From contig NZ_VAUV01000019.1 in NCBI RefSeq assembly GCF_005780165.1, positions 1 through 64,000 of the forward strand: a stretch of DNA of 64,000 bases, read 5' to 3'. This stretch comes from Phragmitibacter flavus. Its GTDB lineage: Bacteria > Verrucomicrobiota > Verrucomicrobiia > Verrucomicrobiales > Verrucomicrobiaceae. The translations under genes and the position numbers were made by a program. The notes beneath the pieces were generated by a model. The model saw nothing but the letters and a program-made list of their open reading frames with translations. It was not told the DNA's origin and did not search any database. Of the stretch, positions 6,292 through 25,469 are shown piece by piece; the stretch's first letter is position 1; every line of letters begins with the position of its first letter.

Positions 6292-7029
6292 ATGAAATCC
6301 AGTTCCCTTTGTGTTGTTTTTACGCTCCTAAGCATGACCTCTCTCGCTCATTCTCAGTCAGTGAATTTGGATGATCCCGTTGCGACGGTTCCGTTTAAAG
6401 AGGAAAAAGTGGGGGATTTTGCGGCGAGCGGTATTCTTGGTTCCGTGAAGGTAGAGGGAGCTTTTTCGGGAAGTCTGTTGACGGTCGATGAGGCGTTCAC
6501 CACCAAGTATGAGAACAATCCACCGAGTGCGCCATTCAAGGTGATCGTTCCGAAGGATAAAGGTTTGCGTTTTCTTCCAGGGGGAAAGAAGTCGGGCGCG
6601 CCAGAGTTGATTCGTATCACGCTGCCGGACGCGGAGGAAAAGAAGGCGGTGGAGATTTTGCGTTTTGGTCCGCTCCGCTTGAAACAGGGGGCAGCCGAGG
6701 AACGGGTCAAGGCGGCGGTGAATTTGCTGAAGAAGGCAGCATTTCCGATGTTCACGAATGGATTCGAGAATGCCCGCGAACTCGAGGTCTATCTCACCAA
6801 AGTGGGTTCTTATGATGCGGCAGTGATGCACATTGAGATGTCAGCCCCCGCTGGAGGCCCGGACTATCTGGTCAAGGCCATCGCCATCCTTCATCCCACC
6901 AAGGATGGCGGCGCGATGGGTTTTCTGATGGCGGACAAGAACTTGAGCGAGGTGAAGTCGGTGGAGGATTTGAGTTCGAAAGGAGTCGGGATGCAGATCA
7001 TTCACTCGCTAAAGTTCGTGGAGGAATAA
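6292..7029 (+). CDS. Secreted protein of unknown function
   Basis: 245 residues with a clear signal peptide (MKSSSLCVVFTLLSMTSLAH, cleavage probably near SLAHSQS) and no further membrane segment, so probably periplasmic or surface-located. The mature part is a mixed alpha/beta domain with no motif I recognise. It opens a long run of + strand genes with short gaps or overlaps, and the next gene starts 8 bases after its stop. No function is proposed. Confidence 0.7.
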   Translation: MKSSSLCVVFTLLSMTSLAHSQSVNLDDPVATVPFKEEKVGDFAASGILGSVKVEGAFSGSLLTVDEAFTTKYENNPPSAPFKVIVPKDKGLRFLPGGKKSGAPELIRITLPDAEEKKAVEILRFGPLRLKQGAAEERVKAAVNLLKKAAFPMFTNGFENARELEVYLTKVGSYDAAVMHIEMSAPAGGPDYLVKAIAILHPTKDGGAMGFLMADKNLSEVKSVEDLSSKGVGMQIIHSLKFVEE

Positions 7030-7037
7030 GCGGACTC

Positions 7038-7421
7038 ATGAGAACGACAATCGCACCAGCTGGACAACGCACGGAGATTTACAAAATCCGTCAGGGAAGC
7101 ATTCCGATGCACTTCGACTTCACAGTAGAGCCGGTTGAGGATGGTGCAAAATTGAGTGGGGTGCTGGAGGTGACGTCTTCGGCGTGGATCATTCCACAAG
7201 CGCCGCAGCGTCTTCCCTTGCAGGCGAGGCATCAGGTGAAGCGGGGCATGTTCAACACGTTTTTCACCCTGGCGGTGATCCCGGATGTGGAGGTGAGGGT
7301 GGCTCCGGTCAGGGACGATGAAGGTGGGGGATCGGGCAAGATCTTTGTGCTGGTGCTGGGGTTGTTGATCGGCTTGATCCTGGCGATGGCGATAGGAATG
7401 TTCTTTCTTGGTGGGAGGTAA
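7038..7421 (+). CDS. Small C-terminally anchored membrane protein, unknown function
   Basis: 127 residues. The first ~95 form a soluble, strand-rich domain (FDFTVEPVEDGAKLSGVLEV). A short DEGGGSG linker leads to one hydrophobic helix near the C-terminus (IFVLVLGLLIGLILAMAIGM). There is no signal peptide, so the topology is tail-anchored. It lies 8 bases after the previous gene and 5 before the next, so probably co-transcribed. Not recognised. Confidence 0.6.
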   Translation: MRTTIAPAGQRTEIYKIRQGSIPMHFDFTVEPVEDGAKLSGVLEVTSSAWIIPQAPQRLPLQARHQVKRGMFNTFFTLAVIPDVEVRVAPVRDDEGGGSGKIFVLVLGLLIGLILAMAIGMFFLGGR

Positions 7422-7426
7422 ATGGT

Positions 7427-8941
7427 ATGAGATATGTGTTTCCTTTTGATCTCCGGGTTTTGTGTCTTGGATGGGGGTTGTTGTCGTTTTGTGCCATGAC
7501 GGTCAGTCAGGCCGCGGAACCGGCCGACATGAGTTCGTTAAACGCCGGGCAAAAAAAGGCGGTTCAGGAATATGTGGCCGAATCGAAGGCCTCGCTGGCG
7601 AAGCTGTTGGTGATTCTCAACCGGGGACAGGGGGCGGGCAACTGGCGCTCGGCATGTCGGGATGCGCAGTCGTTGTTGCAAGGGCTGCGTGATGACAAGC
7701 ACATTACCCCGGCGTTGCAGAAGTGGTGGGATGACGAGGAGATTGCCTGGGAACGCATGGAAGTGGCGGGCGGTGCGGTGGCGGCCGCGAATGAGAAGCT
7801 TCTCGAGTTTTTGGATATTGTGGAGATGGACACGAAGCGCAGCGAGCTGGAGATCGAGACCATGTTTGAGTCGATGAAAAAGAACGTTGACCATCAGATC
7901 AAGCAACTCACGGATGGAGTGAAGGATGTCAACGATGGCGCCAAGGTGATGGAGGAGGTCAGGGAATTCCATGAACTGAGCAAGACGGAACTGAGTGAGG
8001 TGGCGGAGTCCTGGGGACTGATGAACATGGGCACCTCGTTTGTGATGAACTGGATGAACCGGATCACCGCGACCGAGAAGGCGATGTTTCGGATGGCGGA
8101 CAGTCTGTCGCGCAACAAGGTGCGTTATGCGACGGAGCAGGAGCGGGAATTGGAAGCGTATCGCCGCATGCTGGATCGACTGGTGAACGAGAAGATCGAT
8201 CCAGATGGGCGAGGTGCGTTTCATGAGGTGGAGAAAAAGATGGACGCGATGGTAGAAAAAAATCTCGATGCGTATCGGAAGGCGGTGGAGAAGTGGAGGG
8301 CGGTGAATGGTCCGTTATTGGAGAATGCCAAGGTGTATTTTAACGAGGTGGTGATTCCATTTGCGAACTCAGAGGTGGGGACGGCGTTGACCGTGGTGGG
8401 GCCCAAAACGATTGCCAGGGTGATGGTGGGAGTTGGAACCGCCGATGAGGCGTTGAGCGATTTTGCCAAGCGGGTTCATGATGCGTGCCGGGAGTTGACG
8501 GACCGCAGGAGTGGCGAGATTCATCAGAAGCGGTTGGAGGTGATCATGAACAACGAGGAGCGCAGGGACATCCTGACCGAGGCGGAACATCCGGTGCAGG
8601 ACGGCAGGTTGAAGCGGGCGTTGTGGGAGAAGGAGGATGATGTCACGGAGGCCATGGAGAAGGCATTGGAGCCGCTCGAATCGAAGAAAGAGAAACTGCT
8701 GGATCAGATTGCCTCGGCAGATGTGGATCAGAAGCAGCTTGCCCAGTGGCGGTTCGAACTGCAAGGGGTGGAGAAGGAGATGGAGTTCAAAAAGGCGGGT
8801 GCGGCCAGGGAGAAGGCGTCGATCAGGTCCGGCTGGTATGCGCGTGAGAGGGCGGCGCTGGACAAAAAACAGAAGGATGAGCTGGCTGCGATTGATTTAC
8901 AGATCAAGGAGGCGAACGCGCTGAAAAAGGTGGGTGGCTGA
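7427..8941 (+). CDS. Secreted coiled-coil protein of unknown function
   Basis: 504 residues. The hydrophobic N-terminus (FDLRVLCLGWGLLSFCAM, then SQAAEP) reads as a signal peptide. Most of the remainder is rich in E, K, R, M and A with heptad-like patterns and no Gly/Pro breaks over long stretches (for example about 130-300 and 380-500), predicting long alpha-helical coiled coils. It could be a periplasmic scaffold or a filament-like component. No catalytic motif is visible. It sits inside the tight + strand run. Confidence 0.65.
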   Translation: MRYVFPFDLRVLCLGWGLLSFCAMTVSQAAEPADMSSLNAGQKKAVQEYVAESKASLAKLLVILNRGQGAGNWRSACRDAQSLLQGLRDDKHITPALQKWWDDEEIAWERMEVAGGAVAAANEKLLEFLDIVEMDTKRSELEIETMFESMKKNVDHQIKQLTDGVKDVNDGAKVMEEVREFHELSKTELSEVAESWGLMNMGTSFVMNWMNRITATEKAMFRMADSLSRNKVRYATEQERELEAYRRMLDRLVNEKIDPDGRGAFHEVEKKMDAMVEKNLDAYRKAVEKWRAVNGPLLENAKVYFNEVVIPFANSEVGTALTVVGPKTIARVMVGVGTADEALSDFAKRVHDACRELTDRRSGEIHQKRLEVIMNNEERRDILTEAEHPVQDGRLKRALWEKEDDVTEAMEKALEPLESKKEKLLDQIASADVDQKQLAQWRFELQGVEKEMEFKKAGAAREKASIRSGWYARERAALDKKQKDELAAIDLQIKEANALKKVGG

Positions 8942-8968
8942 TGATAGTCTGACGTTGTTGTTGTTGTT

Positions 8969-10282
8969 ATGAAATGGTCCATTGTTATTTTTTGTCTGGC
9001 GGCTTTGATGTCGGGGCTGCCGCTTGGGTTGAATGGTGCTGAGAGTGCGCCGTCTGCGGAGTTATCCCGGGCGAGATACGAACTGGACAAGGTCGTGACG
9101 AAATCGAAGCAGCACGCGGGGCTGCCGTTTGAGCTAAGTGAAGGCGACCAGCGTTCGTTTCGCGAGGTTCAGCAGATTGCGGAGCGTTACCCGGATGATG
9201 TAAAGGTGCAGGAGCTGGTCGCGAAGGCGAAGGAAATTTACCGCAGCGCCAAGGGTGAGCGGTTTCAATTCACGCCCGAGATGCTTGCCTACCGTCAACG
9301 AGGTGCCAAGCTGGCGGAGGTGGTGGCCGCAGCGGGCAAGGCGCGGTGGGAGGTATTGCAAAAGGAACTTGGAGATGACGGGTTGCTGGTGGAGAAAATC
9401 TTTCCGACGGCTGACCCGCTTGAGGAGGGGCCCGATGGATTGTCAGGTCGGCGTGTGGTGCTGGCGGATGTGCCTTATGAGCAGGATTTGTTTGTCAGTG
9501 CAGGGGTGAACTGGGTCGGGGTGGGGTCGGCGGCTCAGGGACATTATTGGGTCAATGGTTCGGGCCCGCGGTTCAATCAGTTGTTTGAAGCACTGGGCCG
9601 CTATCGCGGATTGGTGCAGCAGAACCTTCCGCCCAAGTGGACCTTTGTGGGGAGCGTGGATGGTCCGGAGCTGCTGGCCCCGGGCGGGAGTGCGGCGGAC
9701 ATCAAGGAAGCCTACATGGGATGGGCGGTGAGTCCTGAAGTTATTTATATTCCGGGTGTGGTGCTGGTGGAATGGCGGGCGGATGCAAAAGCCGGGGCGG
9801 TTTTTGCGGGCGAGGAGGACATGGCAAAACGGATCACTTATTCAGTGAATTCGGTGCCGGATGATGTGGAGCCAAAGCAATTGCTGGAAATTTATATCAC
9901 GGCGTTGAAGGAGAAGAACTTTGATCTTCATCTCGAGTGCATTGATCCCGAGCTGCGCAAGGTGGAGCCGCAGATTCATGGGTTGCGTTACAACTGGGAG
10001 GTTCAGCAGAAGGGAATTGAGCAGATTCATGTGCATGCGGAACCTTTCGAGATCGGAGAGGTCAAGGTGATCAAGGGGGGGACGGATGACGGGCTCGAGT
10101 CTTTCTTCGGCGATGCGGAGAAACCATTGAAGACCGCTTTTTCAAAAGAGGAGGAAGTGGTGGTGAACGTGCGGCTCTTTGACAAGGACGGGGTGCAGTC
10201 GGTGAGACCAAGGGTGGTGAAGCTGATCCGGCGTGAGGGAGGCAGATGGTATATCCGTTCGGGTGCGACGCTGACGTTTTGA
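8969..10282 (+). CDS. Secreted protein, unknown function, possible NTF2-like C-terminus
   Basis: 437 residues with an N-terminal signal peptide (MKWSIVIFCLAALMSGLPLG). The middle is a mixed domain I do not recognise. Residues about 300-437 run helix-helix then strands (QLLEIYITALKEKNFDLHLE ... VVNVRLFDKDG ... GGRWYIRSG), as in small SnoaL/NTF2-like or DUF4878-like lipoprotein domains. That assignment is inference only. It lies 27 bases after the coiled-coil gene and shares its direction. Confidence 0.6.
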   Translation: MKWSIVIFCLAALMSGLPLGLNGAESAPSAELSRARYELDKVVTKSKQHAGLPFELSEGDQRSFREVQQIAERYPDDVKVQELVAKAKEIYRSAKGERFQFTPEMLAYRQRGAKLAEVVAAAGKARWEVLQKELGDDGLLVEKIFPTADPLEEGPDGLSGRRVVLADVPYEQDLFVSAGVNWVGVGSAAQGHYWVNGSGPRFNQLFEALGRYRGLVQQNLPPKWTFVGSVDGPELLAPGGSAADIKEAYMGWAVSPEVIYIPGVVLVEWRADAKAGAVFAGEEDMAKRITYSVNSVPDDVEPKQLLEIYITALKEKNFDLHLECIDPELRKVEPQIHGLRYNWEVQQKGIEQIHVHAEPFEIGEVKVIKGGTDDGLESFFGDAEKPLKTAFSKEEEVVVNVRLFDKDGVQSVRPRVVKLIRREGGRWYIRSGATLTF

Positions 10283-10302: not shown

Positions 10303-10833
10303 ATGGGATTCTTTTCCAATTTATTCAATCCGGTGCCGGACAATCCGACGCGGGAGTTTCCGCCATTGACCGCGCCTCTGAAGTTGGTGTGGCACACGGA
10401 GCTTGGTCAGGTCAACCGAGTGTCTCCTGGCGCATCGGTGAATGAGCTGGTGGTGTTCGGGCCTTGCGACAATTTCCTGGAGCTGGGCGAGCACGCGTTC
10501 GAGTTTACTTATCCTGAGTTGGGTTTGATCTTGCAATGCTCGCAAGGATCATTGGAGTTTATTACTTTCATGATATCGGAAGACGATCTGGATGATCCTG
10601 AAATGCAGGTCACTTATGCGAGACCGTGGATCGAACCGATTGGCCAGTTATTGACACCGGAAACCGATGCGCGTGCGTTGACCGCAATGTTTGGAGCATT
10701 TGAAGTGGCGAGTGAAGATGAGGAGGAGGTGATTGGGAATTTTCGATTGGGCGGGATGGTTTATGAGGCGTCGTTTGGGGCGGATGCGCTGTTGAAGCGC
10801 CTCATGATTTATCTGGATGACGCCAGAAAATGA
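10303..10833 (+). CDS. Soluble protein of unknown function
   Basis: I place the start at ATG 10303 (MGFFSNLFNPVPDN) rather than the TTG nine bases upstream. The 176-residue product has no signal peptide or membrane segment and is therefore cytoplasmic, unlike most neighbours. It is acidic and strand-rich in the middle (ELGLILQCSQGSLEFITFMI) with a terminal helix (DALLKRLMIYLDDARK). Not recognised. A soluble member among envelope genes could be a regulator, chaperone or accessory factor, but nothing in the sequence shows which. Confidence 0.6.
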   Translation: MGFFSNLFNPVPDNPTREFPPLTAPLKLVWHTELGQVNRVSPGASVNELVVFGPCDNFLELGEHAFEFTYPELGLILQCSQGSLEFITFMISEDDLDDPEMQVTYARPWIEPIGQLLTPETDARALTAMFGAFEVASEDEEEVIGNFRLGGMVYEASFGADALLKRLMIYLDDARK

Positions 10834-10881: not shown

Positions 10882-11025
10882 ATGACTTCCAGAAAAAGCA
10901 AACGTGCTCCTGTTGCGCTGAAGGACTCCAGGGGAGTTCGATGGTTGTATCTGGCGATCATATTGGGGATCTTTGGCCTTGGGTGGTTGGTGGGACGCAG
11001 CGGGGAGGTGCGGAGGTTTCGATGA
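10882..11025 (+). CDS. Small single-span membrane protein (47 aa), unknown function
   Basis: This frame begins MTSRKSKRAPVALKDSRGVR, continues with one hydrophobic span (WLYLAIILGIFGLGWLVG) and ends RSGEVRRFR. Its TGA overlaps the ATG of the next gene (ATGA at 11022-11025), a coupling seen at several other junctions in this cluster. A basic N-terminus, one helix and a basic tail are typical of small membrane subunits. It lies in a different frame from the longer open frame that starts at 10851, whose upstream part I regard as spurious. Confidence 0.6.
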   Translation: MTSRKSKRAPVALKDSRGVRWLYLAIILGIFGLGWLVGRSGEVRRFR

Positions 11026-11492
11026 GCGAAGGGATAGAACATTTGAAAAAGCCGCAGGGTTCTTTGTCCACCGGCACGATCGTGCGGGTCCTGGTGCAAT
11101 TGTGGTTTACCTGGCATGCGGTAATTTTGATGCCGGTGTTGGTTTACATGTCGGTGCGCAATATGATGCAGCCAAGGCCTGCAAACCTGATGGTCTATGC
11201 GTTCATGCTTCTGCCTGTTTGTTGTGTATTTTTGATGGTGAGCATTTTTGCTCCGCAACGTTGGTATCGACGACGGCGGCTGGGGTGGTTCTTGATGCTG
11301 ATGCTGCTGTTGGGATGTGCTTGTGTGGGAGTGCTTGCAAGAATCTTTTTTACTGATGAGGATCTGAAGAGTTACAAGGACTATCACATGCTGTTCGGTC
11401 CGGTGGTGGTGGCATTGTGGAATGTTGTGCGCATTGCGAGGGTGCAATGGAAGACAGCGGTGGACCTTGAACCCCAAGCCATGAATCCATGA
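11022..11492 (+). CDS. Multi-span membrane protein, unknown function
   Basis: The start is set at ATG 11022 (MSEGIEHLKKPQGSLSTG), overlapping the stop of the 47-residue gene by four bases. The frame stays open upstream to 10851, but that part has no credible start. The 156-residue product has four hydrophobic spans (around LWFTWHAVILMPVLVYM, LMVYAFMLLPVCCVFLMVSI, GWFLMLMLLLGCACVGVLAR and MLFGPVVVALWNVV) separated by short basic loops, so it is an inner-membrane protein. It overlaps the next gene by four bases. Not recognised. Confidence 0.65.
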   Translation: MSEGIEHLKKPQGSLSTGTIVRVLVQLWFTWHAVILMPVLVYMSVRNMMQPRPANLMVYAFMLLPVCCVFLMVSIFAPQRWYRRRRLGWFLMLMLLLGCACVGVLARIFFTDEDLKSYKDYHMLFGPVVVALWNVVRIARVQWKTAVDLEPQAMNP

Positions 11493-12196
11493 TGGCATCG
11501 CGATCATCTTCAAAACGATGGGCTGTGTCAATGGCACTGCTGTTGGGACTGGCGGCAAGCGGAACGGCTCAAAGCATGGAAGATCTACGGAGGGACTATG
11601 AAGAGTATCGGTCGGAGTTGAATGAACTTGCGTTGCTTCGTCCCGATGCGGAAACGCCTTTGAGTGCAAAGGTTGAACTGCCTCCGGTCTTCATTCCGGA
11701 CAAACCAGATGAGACCAACTCGGCCGTGGTGTTGCTGGATCATCTTGGCGCAAAAGGAAAAATTCAACCGGTGTATGGTCGGCTTAACCTGAAGTTTCCG
11801 GGGCCCATGCTGGCCTGTCTTGAGCTGGCCGGGCTTTCTGAGGACGAGTGGCTTGGTTTGTCGGAGGATGACGTTCTTGGATTGAAACGGGTGATGAGGC
11901 TACGTTATCTCGCGGTGGTGGAGGTCACTCATTACAAGTCGGGGGTGGCGCTTGCTGCGGGAAAGGTGGATCCGGGGTTGGTGGACATTAGGGCATGGCT
12001 GATCGATCGGAACTTAAACCAAATTATTTGTGTCACAAAGGCAAAGGCATCGAACCAACAATTGGGTAAGCGGATGAATGCAATTTCCAGGCAGCATGAT
12101 CTGGCGGGTGATCTGGTGACGAATGCGAGAAAGTCCGTTTACGAGGTGTTGCAGGGTGCGACCGGAGGAGTGTTTCGAGACAGCGAATCCGAGTAA
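11489..12196 (+). CDS. Secreted protein of unknown function, likely paralogue of the gene at 29716-30426
   Basis: 235 residues. The basic start and hydrophobic stretch (KRWAVSMALLLGLAASGTAQ) form a signal peptide. The C-terminal half shares a recognisable pattern with the minus-strand protein at 29716-30426: RYLAVVEVTHYKSGV versus RYIGIIKPFKHKAPK, then AWLIDRNLNQI versus FWLIDRNTRQI, and a final ATGGVF versus ATGGTF. The two are probably paralogous. The start overlaps the preceding membrane-protein gene by four bases. Biochemical role unknown. Confidence 0.65.
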   Translation: MMASRSSSKRWAVSMALLLGLAASGTAQSMEDLRRDYEEYRSELNELALLRPDAETPLSAKVELPPVFIPDKPDETNSAVVLLDHLGAKGKIQPVYGRLNLKFPGPMLACLELAGLSEDEWLGLSEDDVLGLKRVMRLRYLAVVEVTHYKSGVALAAGKVDPGLVDIRAWLIDRNLNQIICVTKAKASNQQLGKRMNAISRQHDLAGDLVTNARKSVYEVLQGATGGVFRDSESE

Positions 12197-12200: not shown

Positions 12201-13379
12201 ATGATGCAAAATCGTGATCCAGACATGAATGATTTGGCAGCGCTTCGGGCTCGCTTTGATGCGGCGTTGGGAGCGAAGGAGGCGATTGTCTGGAAGGCGG
12301 GCGCGCCGGAGTATCCTGTGGCGGTGGGAGAGTTTTTTCGGGCGTTGAATTTGCCGCCTTGGAATCATCCGGGCTATGACCCTGCTGCCCATGGAACTTC
12401 GCTGGAAGGTCTAGATGAAGCAAGCCTGAATGAGGTGAAGTCCATTTTGACAGGCTGGGGAAGAAGTGAACGTTTTTCAGATGGTGCCTGGCAGGTGGCC
12501 CTGGAAAAGGCGCCGATCAGCAAGGTGCTGGATCGTGCTGGTGAATTGATCCATGGATCCATCGGCGATCCGAAGCTGAAGATGGTGCCGTTGAATCATC
12601 CGATGGTGACCGTGGCGGGGGGGATGATTTGGGGCTGGCTCGGGTTAAAGGGGTTCTTTGTGGGGCTGGGGCTTGTGGTGGAATTCTTGCGCAGTCAGGG
12701 GTTTATTCCGCGCGGGGAAACGCCCATGCCGCTGTATATGCTGGCCTGTCTGATGATGTTGGGGGTGATCTTCAATCTCGTCGTGGATTGGCGGGCGAAG
12801 CGGGAGTTCGCGGCCATTCGACGCGGAGAGTATTTTGCCAGGTGGACTTATGAAAAGGGTGAAGCGCAGATGATGATCACCATTGATGAGGGACAACGGG
12901 AGGGAAAGGTCAAGTTCCTGTTCTGGTTGCCGGTCATTGGATTGGGATTGGGGGCATTGATTCTTGGGGTGATCGGAGCGGTGGTCAAGGGCGATTGGAT
13001 GCTGCCCTTGAAGGCAGTGGGCATAGGTCTGGGGATTGGTCTTGGGTTGGGGGTGTTGTTGTCGGTGCCCGCCCATTTTATGACCGGAGTGAAGCCCAGG
13101 CTGACACGGGAGATGGTTGCCGAGGTAATTTTTACGCGTGAGGGATTCTACCGGCCCGGGGAGTTCATCCCGGTGATGGCATACGGCAAAGGCATGCGCC
13201 TGTGCATTGACGATTTTGATCGGGGCATCGGTCGTGGTTGGCTGACGTTCCGACTGATCCAGAGTTCTCCAAACAATCCGGCTTCGAAAATGTCATCGAT
13301 TTTTAAATTGCTGGTCCCAGCTGGTGAGGAGGAACAAGCCAAAAGTCTTGCCCATTATTATCAGAACAGCGAAGTTTAA
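12201..13379 (+). CDS. Four-span membrane protein of unknown function
   Basis: 392 residues. A soluble N-terminal ~130 residues rich in short helices is followed by four hydrophobic spans (VTVAGGMIWGWLGLKGFFVG; YMLACLMMLGVIFNLVVDW; FWLPVIGLGLGALILGVIG; VGIGLGIGLGLGVLLSVPA). A cytoplasmic-looking loop separates spans 2 and 3, and a soluble C-terminal ~90-residue domain follows. Several spans are Gly-rich, suggesting tight helix packing. It lies four bases after the previous stop. No family recognised; function not inferred. Confidence 0.65.
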   Translation: MMQNRDPDMNDLAALRARFDAALGAKEAIVWKAGAPEYPVAVGEFFRALNLPPWNHPGYDPAAHGTSLEGLDEASLNEVKSILTGWGRSERFSDGAWQVALEKAPISKVLDRAGELIHGSIGDPKLKMVPLNHPMVTVAGGMIWGWLGLKGFFVGLGLVVEFLRSQGFIPRGETPMPLYMLACLMMLGVIFNLVVDWRAKREFAAIRRGEYFARWTYEKGEAQMMITIDEGQREGKVKFLFWLPVIGLGLGALILGVIGAVVKGDWMLPLKAVGIGLGIGLGLGVLLSVPAHFMTGVKPRLTREMVAEVIFTREGFYRPGEFIPVMAYGKGMRLCIDDFDRGIGRGWLTFRLIQSSPNNPASKMSSIFKLLVPAGEEEQAKSLAHYYQNSEV

Positions 13380-13409: not shown

Positions 13410-13880
13410 ATGAAAATAAGTCATTTATTACTCGTCCTGCTCCCAGCCTTGTTTCTGACATCCTGTGGAGGTGGATACAAGACGGATGTTCCTCCTCCAT
13501 CCGGCAAGGAGACTTACAAAGAGATTCTGCCTGCCGAGATTGGCGGAGTGGCCGTTGATGGCAAGAAGCTGGAGCTGGATGCTTCACGTTATCAGGGAGT
13601 GGCGGCAAGTTATGGCGCCGGGGCGAAGCTGACGGTGTTGCAGTGCAAGGATCAGGCGGCGTTGGATGAGTATGTGAAGGGAACGGTGGTGCCGGGGTTG
13701 GAGGAGTTTGGCAGTCGTTCGAGCGGCAAATTCAACGGCGTTTGGAGCTTGAAAGGCAGCGGCAAGACAGGGCGCATTTATGGGTGGCAGAACGGCAACT
13801 GGCTGTTTGTGATCCAGGCGTCGAATGATGAGTTGTTTGACGAGGTCGTCGATAAGTTTGCCTACATCAGCAAGGAATAA
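13410..13880 (+). CDS. Lipoprotein of unknown function
   Basis: 156 residues starting MKISHLLLVLLPALFLTSCG: a type II signal peptide with lipobox LTSC, predicting lipid attachment at the cysteine and an envelope location. The mature domain (EILPAEIGGVAVDGKKLELD ... LFVIQASNDELFDEVVDKFA) looks like a compact alpha/beta fold of about 120 residues. Not recognised. It is part of the co-directional cluster, 30 bases after the previous gene. Confidence 0.7.
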   Translation: MKISHLLLVLLPALFLTSCGGGYKTDVPPPSGKETYKEILPAEIGGVAVDGKKLELDASRYQGVAASYGAGAKLTVLQCKDQAALDEYVKGTVVPGLEEFGSRSSGKFNGVWSLKGSGKTGRIYGWQNGNWLFVIQASNDELFDEVVDKFAYISKE

Positions 13881-13905: not shown

Positions 13906-14442
13906 ATGCCGAATCAACGCAAGCGTCCTCGTTCCTTCCCTTTGGAATATTCAAAGGGAAGGAATTGGTTGATCACGGGATGTATTCTGGCGATTGCTGG
14001 GGTGCCAGTCTTTGGATTGGCGGCTTACGAGTATCTCAACGCCAGTCCTGCGATGGGGTGGCCGACGACCATCGGAATGATTGAGTATTCGAGGGTGGGC
14101 AGCGGAGTGGATGCTTCCGGGAGGCTGGGCATAAGTTCTTCGTATTTTCCTGAAGTGGGTTATCGCTATGAAGTCGATGGGGTGAGTTATTCGGGGAACA
14201 ACGTTTATCTTGGGATAGGTTCGCCATTTAAAAAAGAAACAGCGGCAGTGGTGGCAAAGTATCGACCGGGGCAGCAGACGAAAGTGTATTATGATCCGCT
14301 GCAACCCGACACGGCGGTGTTGGACCCAAAAGTGCAAGGGCAGAATTTTGTGGCGTTGTATCTCAGCGCATTGGCCTCGGGCATGGGGGTGTTGTGTCTT
14401 TCGGTATTTCGCACCATTCGAAGAAAGGAGCTTTGGGGATGA
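13906..14442 (+). CDS. DUF3592 domain membrane protein
   Basis: 178 residues. Two hydrophobic spans (WLITGCILAIAGVPVFGLAA near residue 25 and LYLSALASGMGVLCLSVF near the C-terminus) flank an extracytoplasmic beta domain. That domain has the DUF3592 signature order: a VGYRYEVDGVSYSG strand pair, the FKKETAAVVAKYRPGQ segment, and VYYDPLQPDTAVLDP. The molecular role of DUF3592 proteins is not established. The TGA overlaps the ATG of the next gene (lipoprotein at 14439), pointing to translational coupling. Confidence 0.75.
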   Translation: MPNQRKRPRSFPLEYSKGRNWLITGCILAIAGVPVFGLAAYEYLNASPAMGWPTTIGMIEYSRVGSGVDASGRLGISSSYFPEVGYRYEVDGVSYSGNNVYLGIGSPFKKETAAVVAKYRPGQQTKVYYDPLQPDTAVLDPKVQGQNFVALYLSALASGMGVLCLSVFRTIRRKELWG

Positions 14443-17161: not shown

Positions 17162-17164
17162 GTT

Positions 17165-17596
17165 ATGAGGCATTCCGGCAATTTCTATCTGTTTCGACTT
17201 GGGCCCGGCTGGCGTGGCCTGGTTACGCTGGCGGATGGGTTGGTGCTGGCGATAGCGTGGATGGGAGTAATTCTCTCGGTGGGCGGGGTGTTTGTTTTGT
17301 GCGTTTGGTGGTTCGGGGAGATGGGGATGTTGATTCCGCCAATGGTTGCGGTAGCCGGGGTGTTTATTTTGCTGCGAAAGGGGAAGTGGGGGGGTATTTC
17401 GAGGATGATGCGTAGATTGGGAGATTGCTTTCCAGGCTGGTTGGTCGTGATGCAAGGCTGTCACGCCAGAGTGAGATATCATGGCGAGATCTGGAAGTTG
17501 TCGGAACCCGGCGTGTATGGACTGAGGCCGGGGTGTCTGGTGTTTTTTAACGGAACAGAAGAACAATGGGATCGGTTTGATCCCATGGCGATGTAA
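17165..17596 (+). CDS. Small two-span membrane protein, unknown function
   Basis: 143 residues starting three bases after the previous stop. Two hydrophobic spans (LVLAIAWMGVILSVGGVFVL and MLIPPMVAVAGVFILL) precede a ~70-residue soluble tail (FPGWLVVMQGCHARVRYHGE ... GVYGLRPGCLVFFNG). Its tail may resemble the soluble domains of neighbouring small membrane proteins, but no family is recognised. Likely the end of a transcription block, since a 77-base gap follows. Confidence 0.55.
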   Translation: MRHSGNFYLFRLGPGWRGLVTLADGLVLAIAWMGVILSVGGVFVLCVWWFGEMGMLIPPMVAVAGVFILLRKGKWGGISRMMRRLGDCFPGWLVVMQGCHARVRYHGEIWKLSEPGVYGLRPGCLVFFNGTEEQWDRFDPMAM

Positions 17597-17673
17597 ATTT
17601 AAGAACCAAGATTTCCCATGATTCACGATATTTTGATAGATACAACGAACCCAATCACCAACCTTATTGTTTT

Positions 17674-19743
17674 ATGAAAACTGTTCTGCTGCTTTGCATT
17701 GCATTCGCCTTTCTGCCCACCTTACTTCCTGCCCAGTCGATTCCTGGTGTGTTAATGGAAATGGACATCATTGAATCCAAGATGTCTACTGGTGATAAAG
17801 GACATCTTGGACGTATTCGTGTTGATTCAGTTGACTCCTCTGACATCCTGCAAGTCACTTGGAATTATGAAGCTGGCGGCGAAAATAAAGGTTATGCATT
17901 GATGCTTGATGGACGGCTTGCCATTTTCACTGGGCCTGCCTTGGAAACGCTTTCTATTTACAAGAGGGATAAGAAGGGGAATCATTTCATTGGTCGCAGA
18001 GCGGAATTTTTTGCCAATCCACCCAAAGTCAAAAAGCTCAAACTTACGCCAGAACCTTTCGTGCCCGAATACAAAAGCAGCGAACTTATGCGCTTTGTGC
18101 TCGACATCAATCTGGAGACTGGCTTCGGGGAGGCCATTGAACTGTTGGGAAACGAGCGAGTTGGACGGCTCATTGAAGATGAAGATTATTTGGTGAGTGC
18201 CACCATCAAGCCCCGCAGTTCCGGTGTGCTTTTGTTGTTAACTCCTTCGCCAGATGGAAAGAGTGCGCGCGTGCAATGGCACATGCTTCACAGCCCTGTC
18301 TCCGGCAGCTATGTATGCAACATCACAAGTTTGCCCGGTGGTGTCGATTCATTGTTCGCAGTCCGTCTTAGTTCCTCTGCGGGAATTTTTATTCCAGATG
18401 ACGTGGCTACTGAAAAAACTGTGCAGACGCCCGAATCTGATATGATTCAAGCGGACCTGATTTTTGAACAATCCCTTAAGCTCGTGCAAGAAGGCAAAGC
18501 GGAGGACGCCATCAAGGGATTTACTCGTGCGCTTAAAGTCTATCCTGATCACATCAAATCTTTGGGCGCGCGAGGCGGGATGAAAGTTGATATGGGCGAT
18601 CATAGTGGCGCGATTGCAGATTTTGAGAAACTGCTTCCCGGAAAACATCTCAACGCTTCCCTGTGGCGGGCACGAGGAATGGCCTACGAACGCGCAGGAT
18701 GCCCGCGCTTCGCCATTCATTGCTATCATCGAGCGATCTCGCAAGATCCGAACTTCGGGAGAGCGTTCGCGAGTTTAGGCTTGATCCACGTCAATCTTGG
18801 ACAGCCAGCCAAAGCCATTGAATACATTGATCGCTATATCGAACTCACGCCCAAAGGGATTGACATTTACCAATATCGCGCGGTTTCTTTGGCCCAATTG
18901 GGGCGTCACAAGGAGGCATTGGCCGACTTTGATCATTATCTCAAAAGCAATCCCGACAACCTGCATTTTCGTTTCAAACGCGGCACCACCCTGATAGATT
19001 TGCAGCAGTGGAATCAAGCCATCGAAGCTTTTCAAGGTATCATTGCAGCCAATCCTGCCGACGCTGCATTCCACGCTGAAGTCTGGCATCATATTGCCTA
19101 TGTTCAACGTCAGCTCAAGCAATGGGAACTCTCCATTGCAGCCTCCACCCAGGCGGCGGCTCTTAACCCACAGGATCCAGTTTTTGTGCGGGAACGCGGT
19201 ATTACCCACTTCATTTCTGGCAATAGTGAGGCAGCTCTAGCAGATGTTGAGCTTGCCCTAAAGTTGAATCCTTCTGACAAGATGGCACTGTCTTATCGCG
19301 GAAAAATTCGTCTTGTTTTAGGTGAGTGGAAAAACGCTGCCACGGATCTTGAACAAGCTCTGGAAAATGGCATTCCCAAAGGTGGAATACCTCATGCTCC
19401 GCTGCATCTGTGGCTATGCAGGCTTCAGTTGCGCGCCGACCGTGCCGCTGCAGATGATGAACTCATCCGTCATTACCGGACCGGCGGTGCCCCGCTTTCG
19501 CCGTGGTTCATTACTCTCATCGACTACATCACGGGGCATGCCAGCGAGGATCGAGTCGATGCCAGCATTGTTGATGCGACAGACGATTATCCCACCGCAG
19601 TGGTCTGGTTCTATGTTGGGATGGTCAAAGTTCAGGCCCAAGATGCCGCTGGTGCAAAAGCCGATTTTGCCAAGTCTGTTGCTACTGGTCGAACTGATTT
19701 AGCGGAGGTGAAGATTGCCAACATGATCTTGCAAAAGCGCTAG
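17674..19743 (+). CDS. Secreted TPR-repeat protein with N-terminal beta domain
   Basis: 689 residues. Signal peptide MKTVLLLCIAFAFLPTLLPA. Residues about 25-230 hold a strand-rich domain in two halves (LQVTWNYEAGGENKGYAL.LDGRLAIF; VLLLLTPSPDGKSARVQW) shared with the next TPR protein and the two proteins at 22434-25469. Residues about 265-560 contain consecutive 34-residue TPRs (AEDAIKGFTRALKVYPDH, PAKAIEYIDRYIELTPKG, HKEALADFDHYLKSNPDN, WELSIAASTQAAALNPQD). It is probably periplasmic or surface-exposed and binds protein partners. Its codons are balanced or C-rich, unlike its G-rich neighbours. Confidence 0.75.
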   Translation: MKTVLLLCIAFAFLPTLLPAQSIPGVLMEMDIIESKMSTGDKGHLGRIRVDSVDSSDILQVTWNYEAGGENKGYALMLDGRLAIFTGPALETLSIYKRDKKGNHFIGRRAEFFANPPKVKKLKLTPEPFVPEYKSSELMRFVLDINLETGFGEAIELLGNERVGRLIEDEDYLVSATIKPRSSGVLLLLTPSPDGKSARVQWHMLHSPVSGSYVCNITSLPGGVDSLFAVRLSSSAGIFIPDDVATEKTVQTPESDMIQADLIFEQSLKLVQEGKAEDAIKGFTRALKVYPDHIKSLGARGGMKVDMGDHSGAIADFEKLLPGKHLNASLWRARGMAYERAGCPRFAIHCYHRAISQDPNFGRAFASLGLIHVNLGQPAKAIEYIDRYIELTPKGIDIYQYRAVSLAQLGRHKEALADFDHYLKSNPDNLHFRFKRGTTLIDLQQWNQAIEAFQGIIAANPADAAFHAEVWHHIAYVQRQLKQWELSIAASTQAAALNPQDPVFVRERGITHFISGNSEAALADVELALKLNPSDKMALSYRGKIRLVLGEWKNAATDLEQALENGIPKGGIPHAPLHLWLCRLQLRADRAAADDELIRHYRTGGAPLSPWFITLIDYITGHASEDRVDASIVDATDDYPTAVVWFYVGMVKVQAQDAAGAKADFAKSVATGRTDLAEVKIANMILQKR

Positions 19744-19767: not shown

Positions 19768-20337
19768 ATGAATATGAGCTTGATGATGCTTCAGGAAAAT
19801 TGGTTCCAGCCGCTGTTGGCGAGATACTATTTTAGACGATCTGGCGAGTCTTTGGAGTGGTGGGGGTGGCTAGTCGTGTTGGGCATCGTTGCGTTTTTCC
19901 TCCTGGTGTTTTTTCCGCTGTGCCTGTTGTTGTGGCATTGGATGATGCACCGAATTGGAGGATGGGGGCGGTTGGCTGCGAATTACGGTGCGACTGTTGG
20001 CATTGAAGGCAAGCAGTTCAGGGGGTATGGCTCAGTGGGATTGATGCCGCAGAACTTTCTTTCGTTTACTGCCAATGATGAGGGTTTGCGGATCAAGAGG
20101 TTGCAGTTCTTTGATCGTGTCAACAAGCCGTTGTTTATTCCGTGGAAGGACTTTCATGGGTTACGACCAGGGAAGAGTTATACCAAAGAGACCATGGTGG
20201 TTTTGGACATAGGGCGTCCTGTGGTGGGCAGGTTGTTGTTGCCGGTGCGGGTGCTTCAGCAATCGGCTGGGAAGGTTTTGTTGGTTGAGGCTCCACCGGC
20301 AACGGCTGAAGCGGCTTTTAACAAGGAGATTTCATGA
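19768..20337 (+). CDS. Small membrane protein, paralogue of the gene at 16706-17161
   Basis: 189 residues. A strong hydrophobic span (WLVVLGIVAFFLLVFFPLCL) is followed by W.RLAANYGATVG, a strand region FLSFTANDEGLRIKRLQFFD and the conserved PLFIPWKDFHGL, matching the paralogue three genes upstream. It lies between the two TPR proteins and overlaps the second (ATGATG at 20334), so it is probably coupled to it. Likely inner membrane with a small beta domain. Role unknown. Confidence 0.65.
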   Translation: MNMSLMMLQENWFQPLLARYYFRRSGESLEWWGWLVVLGIVAFFLLVFFPLCLLLWHWMMHRIGGWGRLAANYGATVGIEGKQFRGYGSVGLMPQNFLSFTANDEGLRIKRLQFFDRVNKPLFIPWKDFHGLRPGKSYTKETMVVLDIGRPVVGRLLLPVRVLQQSAGKVLLVEAPPATAEAAFNKEIS

Positions 20338-22388
20338 TGATCATCGATATGAAGAATAAAGTTACAGCCGCAGCTTTTTTAGTTACGGTGATCACTTGTG
20401 CGCTGTCGGGGGATCTTTCGGCCCAGGCGGTGATGGTGTTGAATTCCCCCAAGAGTTTTCGATCTGATGGTGGGGAAGGTGGTGCGAGCACGGTGAGGCT
20501 TGAGGTGACGGGAAAGGATGCGTTGTTGGAGGTAAAGGAAGAGTTTGAAGATGGATCTTCGGTTGATGGGCATGCGATGTTTTCTGGTGGGCGGTTGGCG
20601 ATGGTTTTGGGTGAGGGTGCGGAATATTTGTCGGTTTTTTCAACGGATGAGGGGGCGATGTTTGGGCATTCGTCAGTCATTCAAGCAGCTGCAAAGTTGA
20701 AGAGTGACAGGTTGGAGGCGACATCGGTGGACGAGGAGTTTGTGACGAATGATGGGAGCAGGTTTGTGGTGAAAATGAATAAGAATGAGGGGACGGGTTT
20801 GGTGGTGGCGGTGACGGATGATGAGAAGGTGGGCGTGGCTGTGGTTGATCCTGGTTTTCTGGCGATTGCGTTGGCGGGAGAGGAGGCTGAGGTGAGGCTG
20901 GAGTTGTTGAGTTTTCTGTCTGATGGGAAGTCGATGGTGGGTCGAATGGTGGTGTCAGGTTCTTTGGCGGCGGGGGTGCGTGAGTTACAGGTTACCAGTG
21001 GTTCCAAGGAATTTGTGGCATGGCTTGAAGCGCAGGCGGAGGTTCCGAGGGTGGCGGGGAAGACGGCGATCAAACCTGCGGATGCAGCCGCGAGGAAGGC
21101 GGCGGATGCGCTGTTTGATGGGGCGAGTGAAGCGTATGGAAGGGGTGAGCTGAAGAAGGCATTGGAGGGGTTGGATCGTGCGATTCAACTGGATCCGGGG
21201 TTTGGTGCGGCTTACACGAACCGGGGTGTCATCACGGCGAATCAGGGGGCGGTGGATGAGGCGCTGGGTGACTTTGATCAGGCGGTGCGGTTCAATGCTT
21301 ATGATGTGACGGCTTGGGGGATGCGTGGGTTGATTCATTACAAGGCGAAGCATTTGCGTTTTGCGATTCATTGTTATGATCGTGTGCTGTCGTTGCAGCC
21401 GGAGAATGTCAAGTATCTGGGTAATAGGGCAAAGGCTAGGAGTGAAACGGGGGATTTGAAGGGGTCGTTGGAAGATTATGATCAATACATGGAGTTAGAG
21501 AAGGGCAATGCTGTGGCTTACAATAATCGTGGGTTGGTGAGGTTTGAACTTGGGGATGTGGAGGGGGCGTTGGAAGATTATGCGGTGAGTTTGAAGATGG
21601 ATCCGAAGAGTGCGATGGCGTGGTCGAACAAGGCGGGTGCGCTTCTGGATTTGGGTCGGTATGATGAGGCGGTGGAGGCTTATGGGATGGCGTTGGAGAT
21701 TGATCCCAAACGCAAGGTGGATTTGAAGGGGCGGGCTTCTGTTCAGGAGATCCTGAAAAATTGGGAGGGTGCGATTGGAGACTATGACCGGATTTTGGAG
21801 ATTGATCCACGGGACGCGGAAGCTTTCGATGCGAGGGGCTTTGTGAAGGATTTTGCTGGTGATACGAAGGGAGCGGTGGCGGACTTGACGCTTAGTCTGG
21901 AGATCGATCCAGATAACGAACACGCGTGGTTTAACCGGGGGGCAATTCATCAGCGTGAAGGACGTTGGAAGGAGGCGGCGGATGATTTTAGAAATTGTTT
22001 GAAATCGGGGGATGAATATACCAATTATTCTCAACTCTACCTTTGGTTGTGTCAGGGGAAGATGGGAGAGATGGAGGCGGCGACGAAGGATTTTGAAGCT
22101 TTCCTGCTTTCAATTGAGAAGGGTGGGGAGAATCGGTGGTTTCATCATGTCGCGGGGTTTCTTCTGGGGCGTGTGAACGAGGAGGCTTTGTTTGCGGCTG
22201 TCGACAGGACGGGTGATGAGGATGAGGGGGCGCAGGATTGTGAGGCCTGGTATTATGTGGGTCTGAAGAGGATGGAAGCGGGCGATAAGAAGGGAGCGGT
22301 CGATGCATTTGGCCAGTGTGTGGCAACCGATCTTTGGATTCACCTTGAGTATGCTGCGGCCAAAACCCGGCTTGAGGAACTGCGGTGA
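20334..22388 (+). CDS. Secreted TPR-repeat protein with N-terminal beta domain
   Basis: 684 residues. The N-terminus (MKNKVTAAAFLVTVITCALS after a short MMIID lead, then AQAVMV) is a signal peptide. ATG 20349 may be the true start. Residues about 30-230 form the strand-rich domain shared with the previous TPR protein. Residues about 255-600 are TPR units (LKKALEGLDRAIQLDPGFGA, VDEALGDFDQAVRFNAYD, LKGSLEDYDQYMELEKGN, YDEAVEAYGMALEIDPKR, WEGAIGDYDRILEIDPRDAE). Same architecture as the gene at 17674-19743 but with native G-rich codon use, so the pair are diverged paralogues. Confidence 0.78.
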   Translation: MMIIDMKNKVTAAAFLVTVITCALSGDLSAQAVMVLNSPKSFRSDGGEGGASTVRLEVTGKDALLEVKEEFEDGSSVDGHAMFSGGRLAMVLGEGAEYLSVFSTDEGAMFGHSSVIQAAAKLKSDRLEATSVDEEFVTNDGSRFVVKMNKNEGTGLVVAVTDDEKVGVAVVDPGFLAIALAGEEAEVRLELLSFLSDGKSMVGRMVVSGSLAAGVRELQVTSGSKEFVAWLEAQAEVPRVAGKTAIKPADAAARKAADALFDGASEAYGRGELKKALEGLDRAIQLDPGFGAAYTNRGVITANQGAVDEALGDFDQAVRFNAYDVTAWGMRGLIHYKAKHLRFAIHCYDRVLSLQPENVKYLGNRAKARSETGDLKGSLEDYDQYMELEKGNAVAYNNRGLVRFELGDVEGALEDYAVSLKMDPKSAMAWSNKAGALLDLGRYDEAVEAYGMALEIDPKRKVDLKGRASVQEILKNWEGAIGDYDRILEIDPRDAEAFDARGFVKDFAGDTKGAVADLTLSLEIDPDNEHAWFNRGAIHQREGRWKEAADDFRNCLKSGDEYTNYSQLYLWLCQGKMGEMEAATKDFEAFLLSIEKGGENRWFHHVAGFLLGRVNEEALFAAVDRTGDEDEGAQDCEAWYYVGLKRMEAGDKKGAVDAFGQCVATDLWIHLEYAAAKTRLEELR

Positions 22389-22433: not shown

Positions 22434-23924
22434 ATGAATATAGTAACTTATCTGATCATGGGATTAGTGCTGACGTCTTTTGGTTTGCCAATGATGGCGC
22501 AGTCGGAGACTCGCAAGAGTGAGATTATTGGCGCGGTGGGTGAGCAGGCCGACGATGCGTTGTTTTCGGTCCATCAGGCGGTGAATGCGCTGGCGGATGG
22601 CTGGGTGAACAAGACGTTTGAGGAGAAACAGGCGCTGGAATTGGCGACGAGTTATCGGGGGAGTGCGGAGTTGGTGGATGGGTTGGTGAAGGGGAAATCG
22701 GAGGATGTGAAGCGGACGAGTGGTTTGCTGGTGAAGCAGGCGACGGCTTTGGAGGCGTGGATCAAGATCGGGGATGAGGCGTTGGCGGAGACTTATCGGA
22801 AGTTGAAGGAGCAGGCGGATGCAGCGATGGCGGGTGGTGCGGAAATGGGGCCAGAGATGGGAGCGACGGTGGCGCAGGGGGAAACGATTGAGTTGAAGAT
22901 TGTGAAATCGGTGGCACCGGGTGGGAAGGAGGGAGACTTGGGGACGATGACGGTGACGCGGAAGAGCAAGGAACTGCCGCTGGAGGTCAAATGGGCCTAT
23001 GCCGACGGTGGTTCTGATCAGGGGCTCTGCGTGCCATTCCCGAACAGCGGCGAAATGGCGGTCTTCTACGGTGAGGGTGTGAAGAGCGTCCATATCTTCA
23101 AAATCGATGGCAAAAACATCACCGGTTGCTGGGCCTCCGTCGAAGGCAATCCCAAGATCCGCAGCATCAGGCTCACCCAAGCCGACAATGTCAACGACTA
23201 TGACATTGTTGGGGTTGAGGGAGGAAAATTCTCGGTCATGGCTTTCAAAGGTGGCATGGCCAGTGTCACCTGGAAATTTAAAGGCGGTCTAGAAGTCTCC
23301 GGCATTGGCGTGTGGAAGGGCGACTACCTGGCTGCCATCGATGTCGAACCCAAAGCAAAGGCCGGCGTTTTGCTTTACAGCATGGCTCCCGATGGGAAAA
23401 CGGCCACCTGTCGCTGGATCATGAACGACGTAAGTGGCGTAGGCGAAGAAACCCTTGAAGTTACCGCCATGTCGCCGAATTTCCTCACGGGCGGTGGATC
23501 CCCAACTGTCACAGCGACAGCAGGCAACGTCCGGGATGAAGTCCGCCAGATCGCCGAACAGCTGCGTGAAAACCTGGGCAATGCGGTTCAATACCGGCCC
23601 AGCACCTCGCAGATCAACGCGATCTCTGCCACCCTGAATGATGCCGAATTGCTGCGTGCCTACGTCGAGGAAGTTTATACCCAGATCCCGTCTACAGGCC
23701 CCGCCGCCAAACCCGGCCAGAACGAGATCCTTGTTGAAGGCCCCGACCTTAAAGATCTCCCCGGTGGATATACCCAAAAGATCAAACACTTCCGTCCCGG
23801 CACTGACATCTACCGCTTTAAATATGTTGCCCCAGGCCAGGACATTGGCATGTCTTATGACGGACTTATCAAAGTCAAAGACCAATGGATATTCATTCCG
23901 AAAGCCTGGCGGGCTTTCAAGTAA
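22434..23924 (+). CDS. Secreted two-domain protein, tandem paralogue of the next gene
   Basis: 496 residues. Signal peptide ending LPMMAQSE. Residues about 25-125 are helical (IIGAVGEQADDALFSVHQAV; FEEKQALELATSYRGSAELV). Residues about 150-360 are a two-half beta domain (LPLEVKWAYADGGSDQGLCV, MAVFYGEGVKSVHIFKIDGK, ASVTWKFKGGLEVSGIGVWK, GVLLYSMAPDGKTATCRW), also seen in the TPR proteins. The C-terminus (DIYRFKYVAPG, then MSYDGLIKV..QWIFIPKAWRAF) is conserved with the next gene. Codon style changes from G-rich to C-rich at about 22980 inside the gene. Function unknown. Confidence 0.7.
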   Translation: MNIVTYLIMGLVLTSFGLPMMAQSETRKSEIIGAVGEQADDALFSVHQAVNALADGWVNKTFEEKQALELATSYRGSAELVDGLVKGKSEDVKRTSGLLVKQATALEAWIKIGDEALAETYRKLKEQADAAMAGGAEMGPEMGATVAQGETIELKIVKSVAPGGKEGDLGTMTVTRKSKELPLEVKWAYADGGSDQGLCVPFPNSGEMAVFYGEGVKSVHIFKIDGKNITGCWASVEGNPKIRSIRLTQADNVNDYDIVGVEGGKFSVMAFKGGMASVTWKFKGGLEVSGIGVWKGDYLAAIDVEPKAKAGVLLYSMAPDGKTATCRWIMNDVSGVGEETLEVTAMSPNFLTGGGSPTVTATAGNVRDEVRQIAEQLRENLGNAVQYRPSTSQINAISATLNDAELLRAYVEEVYTQIPSTGPAAKPGQNEILVEGPDLKDLPGGYTQKIKHFRPGTDIYRFKYVAPGQDIGMSYDGLIKVKDQWIFIPKAWRAFK

Positions 23925-23960
23925 ACTACCCAACAACAACCGTTAGAGAAGGACGAAGTT

Positions 23961-25469
23961 ATGAAGAAATTATCGACATGGATGGCAGTGGGACTCGCTA
24001 TGGCGGGAACCAGTCTGAATTTGAACGGTCAGACTGATGAGCGCAAACAGGAGATCGTCAGTGCCGTGGGGGAGCAAGCTGGTGATGCTTTGTTTTCGTT
24101 GCATCAGGCGGTGAATGCGGTGGCGGATGGGTGGGTGAACAAGACGTTTGAAGAAAAGCAGGCGCTGGAGCTGGCGGCAAGTTATCGCGACAGTGCGGAG
24201 TTGGTGGAGCGGTTGGTAAAGGGGAAGTCGGATGAGATGGAGAAGGTGACGGGCTTGCTGGTGAAGCAGGTGACGGCGCTGGAAGCGTGGATCACGATTG
24301 GGGATGATGCGTTAGCGGGAACTTATAAAAAATTAAAGGCTGAAGTGGATGCGGGATTGGCTGGAGGAGGGGGCCTAGGGGCGCAAATGGGGGCGGCTGT
24401 GGCGCAAGGGGAGACCATTGAACTGAAGATTGTGAAGTCGGTGGCGCCGAATGGAAAGGCTGGGCAGCCGGGCACGATGACGGTGACGCGGACGAGCAAG
24501 GAGTTGCCTTTGGAGGTGATGTGGAAGTATGCGAATGGAGGATCGGATCGTGGATTGTGTGTGCCGTTTCCAAGGAGCGGAAAGATGGCGGTGTTTTTTG
24601 GTGAGGGGGTGCATTCGGTTTCGATTTACAAACGCGAGGGCAAATCGGTGACGGGGCGTTGGGTTTCAACAAAGCCGGGATCGACGCTCAAAGACATCAA
24701 GCTGACGCAGGGGGCGAGTAAGTCAGAGTATGACATTGAGGGGGGTGGCAGGATGAAGCTGGATCTGCGCGAGGGAATGATTGCGAATGTGACTTGGGAG
24801 TTTCAGGCGGGGAAGGTGCCGGGGATTGCGGTGGGAGATAATGAATATCTGGCTTTGATCTCGATGGATCCAAAAAAGAAGGCAGGGGTGGCGCTTTACA
24901 CTATGGCAGATGATGCGAAGAGCGCGACGAGCCGGTGGACGATGGCGGGTGCGAATGGTGCGGGTGAGGAGGAGTTGGTGGTGACGGCGATGTCGCCAGG
25001 GTTCTTGTCGGGTCCGCCACCGGCTGCTGCGGCAGGGCCTATGGAAGAGGCACCGGGAGCGGAGGAGGGTTCGGTGGAGGATGAGATCAAGGAGGTCGCG
25101 TTGAAGTTATTGGCGGATATGGGGACTTTGGATGAATTGCGTCCGACGGGTGAGCAGTTGGCGGCGATTGCGGTGAGTGCGGAGGATGCGCAGTTGCTTT
25201 CGGTTTATGTGAAGTCGGTGTATGAAGGGCTGGCTCGCGGTAATCGGGTGGCGGGGGCAAAGCAGACGGAAGTCAAGGTGGGCGGACCGGATTGGAAGGA
25301 TCTGGCGGGGGGTTATTCAGATGTTAGGGATCGATTCAAGCCGGAGGTGAAGATTTATGAGTTCAGTTATGTCGAACCTGGGAATGATGTGGGGATGCGT
25401 TATGATGGATTGATCAAGGTGGAGGGCAAATGGGTGTTCATTCCGAAGGCCTGGCGGGCGTTCCGGTGA
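23961..25469 (+). CDS. Secreted two-domain protein, tandem paralogue of the previous gene
   Basis: 502 residues with signal peptide MKKLSTWMAVGLAMAGTSLN. Domain order is as in the preceding gene: helical N-domain (IVSAVGEQAGDALFSLHQAV), two-half beta domain (LPLEVMWKYANGGSDRGLCV, MAVFFGEGVHSVSIYKREGK), an Ala/Gly/Pro/Glu-rich linker near residue 350, and the conserved C-terminus (MRYDGLIKVEGKWVFIPKAW). G-rich codons throughout, matching the local background. The pair arose by tandem duplication. Each beta half (V.W....G.G......L.V......GV..Y....DGK..G.W) recalls domains often labelled fibronectin-binding-like, but that label gives no certain function. Confidence 0.7.
   Translation: MKKLSTWMAVGLAMAGTSLNLNGQTDERKQEIVSAVGEQAGDALFSLHQAVNAVADGWVNKTFEEKQALELAASYRDSAELVERLVKGKSDEMEKVTGLLVKQVTALEAWITIGDDALAGTYKKLKAEVDAGLAGGGGLGAQMGAAVAQGETIELKIVKSVAPNGKAGQPGTMTVTRTSKELPLEVMWKYANGGSDRGLCVPFPRSGKMAVFFGEGVHSVSIYKREGKSVTGRWVSTKPGSTLKDIKLTQGASKSEYDIEGGGRMKLDLREGMIANVTWEFQAGKVPGIAVGDNEYLALISMDPKKKAGVALYTMADDAKSATSRWTMAGANGAGEEELVVTAMSPGFLSGPPPAAAAGPMEEAPGAEEGSVEDEIKEVALKLLADMGTLDELRPTGEQLAAIAVSAEDAQLLSVYVKSVYEGLARGNRVAGAKQTEVKVGGPDWKDLAGGYSDVRDRFKPEVKIYEFSYVEPGNDVGMRYDGLIKVEGKWVFIPKAWRAFR

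Follow-up and report, generated by a model that had tools for sequence, protein, structure and literature searches.

A co-directional run of envelope-protein genes in a Verrucomicrobiaceae-type bacterium, with a small gene kernel that recurs in another family of the order

The stretch of DNA analyzed here, referred to as the window, consists of the initial 64 kb of a contig 92.7 kb long in the 5.9 Mb genome of a Verrucomicrobiaceae-type bacterium that is the sole sampled member of its genus. ORF calls and gap measurement identified 22 co-directional genes on the plus strand between 6292 and 25469 (Table 1; genes and products are named by their first coordinate), separated by intergenic distances of -4 to +77 nt, in agreement with the roughly 22 genes counted in a preliminary description of this DNA. 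The four-base ATGA overlaps that it called many are present and number six, at 11022, 11489, 14439, 14915, 15550 and 20334. A signal peptide, lipobox or membrane span was found in 21 of the 22 products using a crude hydropathy and lipobox scan together with reading of the N-termini, which bears out the earlier view that the genes encode almost only secreted, lipid-anchored or membrane proteins; the sole product with neither signal nor span is that of 10303-10833, and the reported single-span protein of 47 residues has its gene at 10882-11025. The positions 6292 and 25469 do not hold as the bounds of a cluster and are arbitrary limits, as same-strand genes continue on both sides. Upstream, 2937-6239 ends 52 nt before 6292 and is itself preceded by 6-2756 at the contig start; downstream, the run ends with 25494-25817, which begins 24 nt past 25469 and is followed by a gene on the opposite strand. 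The start of 11022 is the ATG at that position and not that of a longer TTG ORF, as fixed by the homologue in G332, a genome of the same order and another family, and the start of 16175 is probably the ATG 16175 rather than that of a longer TTG ORF. Scans for consensus promoters and terminators gave little beyond the level of shuffled sequence.

Table 1. Genes of the plus-strand run, its flanking genes and a related minus-strand group
Coordinates	Strand	Product	Remarks
6..2756	+	Paralogue of 2937-6239, truncated by contig start	49% identity over 947 aa
2937..6239	+	Inverse-autotransporter-type surface protein	IAT_beta 53.6 bits
6292..7029	+	Secreted protein, 245 aa	No Pfam match; homologues in 5 other Verrucomicrobiaceae genomes
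7038..7421	+	127-aa protein, C-terminal membrane span	No family in Pfam/NCBIfam
7427..8941	+	Secreted helical/coiled-coil protein, 504 aa, orphan	Weak coiled-coil-type matches only (Pfam, PADLOC)
8969..10282	+	Orphan secreted protein, 437 aa	Own genome only
10303..10833	+	Probably cytosolic, 176 aa; neither signal nor span	ORF reaches TTG 10294
10882..11025	+	47-residue single-span membrane protein, MTSRKSKRAPVALKDSRGVRWLYLAIILGIFGLGWLVGRSGEVRRFR	Overlaps next start by ATGA
11022..11492	+	Multi-span membrane protein, 156 aa, kernel gene	41-42% to L052:11711-12196 (G332) over aligned protein
11489..12196	+	Secreted 235-aa protein, kernel gene	Paralogue of minus-strand lipoprotein 29716-30426
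12201..13379	+	392 aa: DUF6508 segment and four membrane spans	Pfam 27.3 bits, cut-off 23.6
13410..13880	+	Lipoprotein (LTSC lipobox), predicted PsbP/Mog1-like fold, kernel hub	Nearest TM1622/DUF3242
13906..14442	+	DUF3592 membrane protein, kernel gene	Pfam 58 bits; 53% to G332 homologue
14439..14918	+	Kernel lipoprotein (LISC), weakly similar to META domain	27% to G332 homologue, E about 1e-11
14915..15553	+	Secreted small TPR protein	Weak TPR, above Pfam cut-off; weakly resembles 20334 C-terminus
15550..16164	+	DUF3592-like membrane protein	Paralogue of minus-strand 29138-29701
16175..16690	+	Putative lipoprotein (LGGC)	Start uncertain
16706..17161	+	Membrane-anchored protein	Paralogue of 19768
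17165..17596	+	143 aa, two membrane spans	Topology scan
17674..19743	+	Secreted; barrel domain (about residues 23-222), then TPR array	Pfam TPR, paralogy
19768..20337	+	Membrane-anchored protein	Paralogue of 16706
20334..22388	+	Secreted; barrel domain, then TPR array	Paralogue of 17674
22434..23924	+	Secreted; helical N-terminus, barrel domain, C-terminal alpha/beta domain	Paralogue of 23961
23961..25469	+	Secreted; helical N-terminus, double beta-barrel (150-344), C-terminal domain	C-terminal domain stand-alone in Bacteroidota
25494..25817	+	Secreted 107-aa protein, SFPDF repeats (degenerate SFPDFTVKLV)	24 nt beyond 25469
29138..30941	-	Second mini-operon: PH-like two-span 30438-30941, 11489-type lipoprotein 29716-30426, 15550-type DUF3592-like 29138-29701	

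At the far end of the window, a long CRISPR-like repeat array runs from about 62000-64000 into contig 64-67.9 kb (L034), with frames reading FNGAALGRARR, LQRGRARESAEI and ASTGPRSGERGD, and cas-like genes (Cas4-Cas1-like, Csx17-like and Cas3-like) were seen by eye at contig positions 68464-78327. Inspection by eye suggests that array and genes are of type I-G/I-U.

Profile searches assigned few of the 22 products to a family. Above the Pfam cut-offs we obtained TPR (17674, 20334 and, weakly, 14915), DUF3592 (13906) and DUF6508 (12201) and nothing else, and the NCBIfam scan of the same products gave no match. The two TPR proteins described earlier, 17674 and 20334, each have several repeats above the cut-off, and 14915 adds a weak third. 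The proposal of DUF3592-type proteins is confirmed for 13906, which scores well above the 25.3-bit cut-off of PF12158, and holds in part for 15550, which has no match to PF12158 and weak Pfam matches to DUF2500/DUF7489 only, its DUF3592-like character being recognized through its paralogue. The coiled-coil protein corresponds to 7427, whose matches of that type are weak. Further Pfam matches of low score, to DUF4447, COMMD1, KR and fatty-acid desaturase among others, were put down to chance. Alternative identities for the block as a whole were considered and rejected: an anti-phage defence island, for which PADLOC gave coiled-coil/TPR-type matches only (E 0.004-0.009); a prophage or phage tail cluster, for which the PHROGs matches were TPR families only; an integron or cassette array, the genes overlapping by ATGA and spacer sites being absent; and a plasmid-borne block, 13410 having no match in PLSDB. 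No component typical of a transporter or secretion system, such as an ATPase, secretin, pilin or permease, appeared in the Pfam and NCBIfam scans, in which a component below detection is possible, and the earlier impression that enzymes, secretion systems and transporters are absent agrees with the Pfam, NCBIfam, PADLOC and PHROGs results, where none was recognized. Since no catalytic, transport or defence component was recognized, a structural or binding role for the cluster products seems most likely. Literature searches on DUF3592, DUF3242 and Verrucomicrobial inverse autotransporters returned nothing on point.

The genes 6-2756 and 2937-6239 are tandem inverse-autotransporter-like paralogues with a long repetitive passenger. 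The presence of IAT_beta in 2937-6239, on the same strand 52 nt upstream and with a tandem paralogue before it, raises the idea that the run is an accessory operon for these two proteins, with the secreted proteins of TPR, coiled-coil and barrel type assisting the folding, docking or regulation of these adhesins. We regard this as improbable, because no such homologue stands beside 6292-, 13410- or 23961-type genes in the neighborhoods examined and because known inverse autotransporters rely on the general Bam machinery, which suffices without such an operon. The upstream protein shares the IAT_beta domain with the intimin/invasin type, whereas none of the 22 cluster products carries it.

The several paralogous pairs of the preliminary description proved to be three, namely 16706/19768 (30% identity), 17674/20334 (26%, full length) and 22434/23961 (55-57%), and they show that the cluster expanded by tandem duplication. 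The genes 16706-17674 and 19768-20334 resemble two copies of a unit consisting of a membrane-anchored protein and a barrel-TPR protein. Four products, 17674, 20334, 22434 and 23961, have a stretch of about 200 residues in common, and in the AlphaFold2 model of 23961 (pLDDT 79; pTM 0.44 from a shallow alignment, so that the domain arrangement is unsure) the region 150-343 is an all-beta structure of 16 strands that we read as two eight-stranded barrels, apparently interleaved in one domain. The structural matches of this region were designed barrels (Z 12.0), the OmpA barrel (10), factor H binding protein (7.5) and lipocalins (5-6), which indicate a common arrangement and not a function; staphylococcal pore-forming proteins, returned by Foldseek for the whole model with a TM of about 0.1, were discarded as kin. 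Four profiles run against the sequences of solved structures brought up no credible match, and in these searches the barrel domain resembled no solved chain in sequence. As modelled, the domain in the four cluster proteins resembles the eight-stranded up-and-down barrel of lipocalin/avidin-type proteins, factor H binding protein and NHBA in fold only, and unlike those proteins the cluster barrels are followed by either a TPR array or a new C-terminal domain; within the scope of our searches, the barrel-plus-TPR architecture counts as a new combination of domains. The C-terminal domain of 23961 occurs as a stand-alone protein in Bacteroidota (L043:4389-4877 and L044:9848-10357, in Aureispira- and Microscilla-labelled records), one of the two with a lipobox. 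In three of the five other Verrucomicrobiaceae genomes with a 6292 homologue, all of genus g11, a 6292-type domain is fused ahead of a 23961-type C-terminal domain, a fusion that links the first and last genes of 6292-25469.

The lipoprotein 13410 scored 17.6 bits (E 0.004) against DUF3242 (PF11586), under the gathering cut-off of 25 bits. Its structure model, of moderate confidence (pLDDT 72, from a two-sequence alignment), best matched TM1622 (1vr8) with a Z of 9.2 and 3.3 A over 111 residues (Foldseek probability 1.00, TM 0.48-0.53), and 13410 is predicted on this model to belong to the Mog1/PsbP-like fold class, nearest to TM1622/DUF3242. It is a lipoprotein whose fold matches that of the PsbP/Mog1-like proteins (TM1622/DUF3242, LpqN, the RseB C-terminal domain and PsbP), the next-best alignments also being to PsbP/Mog1-like chains, but it differs from them in its sequence score below the Pfam cut-off and in its neighborhood and partners. 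The copy in G332 is 67% to the window copy, compared with 50-56% to its congeners, a closeness in sequence that hints at lateral exchange or old paralogy, between which a six-row tree does not decide. Three further f57 genomes contain 13410 homologues without other cluster genes, and the homologue in G423 (L055:10051-10518) has an in-frame TGA stop, as a pseudogene or an assembly error.

Immunity arrays consist of small, diverse, duplicated membrane proteins and lipoproteins. The cluster has small and diverse membrane proteins and lipoproteins as well as paralogous pairs, the G332 copy of 13410 shows the signs of exchange between lineages described above, and the 13410 fold is shared, at low Z, with some T6SS immunity/chaperone chains (5h7y, 6xrf). 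An array for self-protection against the secreted or contact-dependent toxins of rivals would account for these features; we nevertheless consider it very improbable, given that searches with Pfam, NCBIfam, PADLOC and PHROGs recognized no family of toxins, Rhs proteins, T6SS components or immunity proteins within or beside the cluster, and that long secreted TPR and barrel proteins are atypical of immunity proteins.

Evidence for coupling among the genes comes from distant relatives and from a minus-strand trio in the window. In G332, homologues of 13410 (67%), 14439 (27%), 11022 (41-42%) and 13906 (53%) lie within about 3 kb (L052, 10.06-12.88 kb), together with a two-span protein labelled PH-like from sequence inspection, with no family match behind the label. 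Among 377 genomes of the order, G332 is the only other one with close homologues of 11022 and 13906 (E 1e-87 and 5e-109), and the next-best homologue of 13906 has an E of 2e-20. Genes of the DUF3592 family as such are widespread, occurring in 244 of the 377 genomes of the order, and the host itself has two further copies near which no other type of cluster gene was seen, but 13906 has its one close counterpart in G332. The G332 block also contains an 11489-like N-terminal remnant after the 11022 homologue, in the same succession as in the window (0 of 2000 shuffles), while the order of the kernel, as we call this set, is otherwise rearranged relative to the window. By our estimate, chance alone would place three such genes within 3 kb of 13410 in a genome of 4.4 Mb with a probability of the order of 1e-9. 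In an Akkermansiaceae MAG (L041), a 13410 homologue (56%) stands directly before a 23961 homologue (52%); the latter (L041:9560-11038) has one in-frame stop, as a pseudogene or an assembly error. A minus-strand trio 4 kb from the cluster places paralogues of the 11489 and 15550 types beside a relative of the PH-like protein of the G332 block, with paralogy bit scores of 37-47 that are modest but clear of other comparisons and E-values from tiny databases. The comparisons of the trio and the G332 block show 11489-type and DUF3592-type genes accompanying a PH-like protein in both, and a small kernel appears, from these sequence comparisons, to be coupled across families.

Most of the other genes searched behaved differently. 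The genes were searched singly in samples that cover part of the order, 7038, 10303, 14915, 15550, 16175, 16706/19768 and 17165 being among those outside the other-genome searches. In the family sample of 67-68 genomes, 7427, 8969 and 12201 were found in the host genome only. Homologues of 6292 occur in five further family genomes with the other cluster genes absent nearby, 23961 has a single full-type relative in the family (in G009, 41% identity, standing alone) as well as relatives with the barrel domain only in g11 and G060, and 11489-type genes elsewhere are singletons, those in f57 having no common neighbors. A comparison of gene order with related genomes, proposed earlier as a check, found the full cluster in no other family genome and nothing more than the rearranged kernel of G332 in the family and order genomes searched. 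The claim of one functional unit is supported in part, for the kernel, which recurs together in G332, and not for most genes tested outside it, which are orphans or scattered; homologues scattered without a conserved neighborhood, which the preliminary description took as speaking against such a unit, are what we found for those genes and not for the kernel.

These results can be read as an accretion of fast-evolving, lineage-specific envelope genes piled behind one promoter, with joint function limited to small gene pairs. We take this to be a serious possibility, nearly as likely as the reading as an envelope complex given below: the majority of the searched genes occur nowhere else or as isolated single copies, the gene order of the kernel differs between genomes, paralogues have arisen by tandem duplication, and the G+C of the cluster (about 0.50-0.57) is below that of most of the remaining contig. 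Against accretion stand the co-localization of the kernel in another family and the reappearance of two cluster gene types in the minus-strand trio, both hard to explain without some functional coupling, and the near-zero spacing with ATGA coupling across 19 kb.

Building on gene order, compartment signals, paralogy, kernel recurrence and predicted folds, our tentative reading, to which we give somewhat less than an even chance, is that the region forms an operon-like, lineage-specific array encoding a duplicating, modular, non-enzymatic envelope complex. The run fits neither a conserved operon nor a random accumulation of genes, and combines a coupled kernel with a host-specific periphery derived from duplication and recruitment. 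The kernel would comprise small inner-membrane proteins (the DUF3592 type and a multi-span protein, with a two-span PH-like protein in the sister loci) and the PsbP/Mog1-like and META-like lipoproteins, to which tandem duplication would then have added secreted scaffolds in which TPR arrays or helical segments are joined to a double eight-stranded barrel. If the genes are co-transcribed and their products form a physical complex, the membrane proteins and lipoproteins may build an envelope-spanning platform, the barrel domains may bind a ligand or surface partner, and the TPR proteins may keep the parts together. That the region encodes an undescribed non-enzymatic envelope apparatus of the Verrucomicrobiales, with TPR scaffolds that bear a new double-barrel domain on a membrane and lipoprotein platform that passes between lineages as a cassette, is a more specific proposal that we consider unlikely, if conceivable.

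Should the kernel prove to be one complex, it would offer a way into the many orphan envelope genes of Verrucomicrobiota. Its recurrent partners (13410, 11022, 11489, 13906, the PH-like protein and 23961) constitute a testable set where sequence searches by themselves yield no function.
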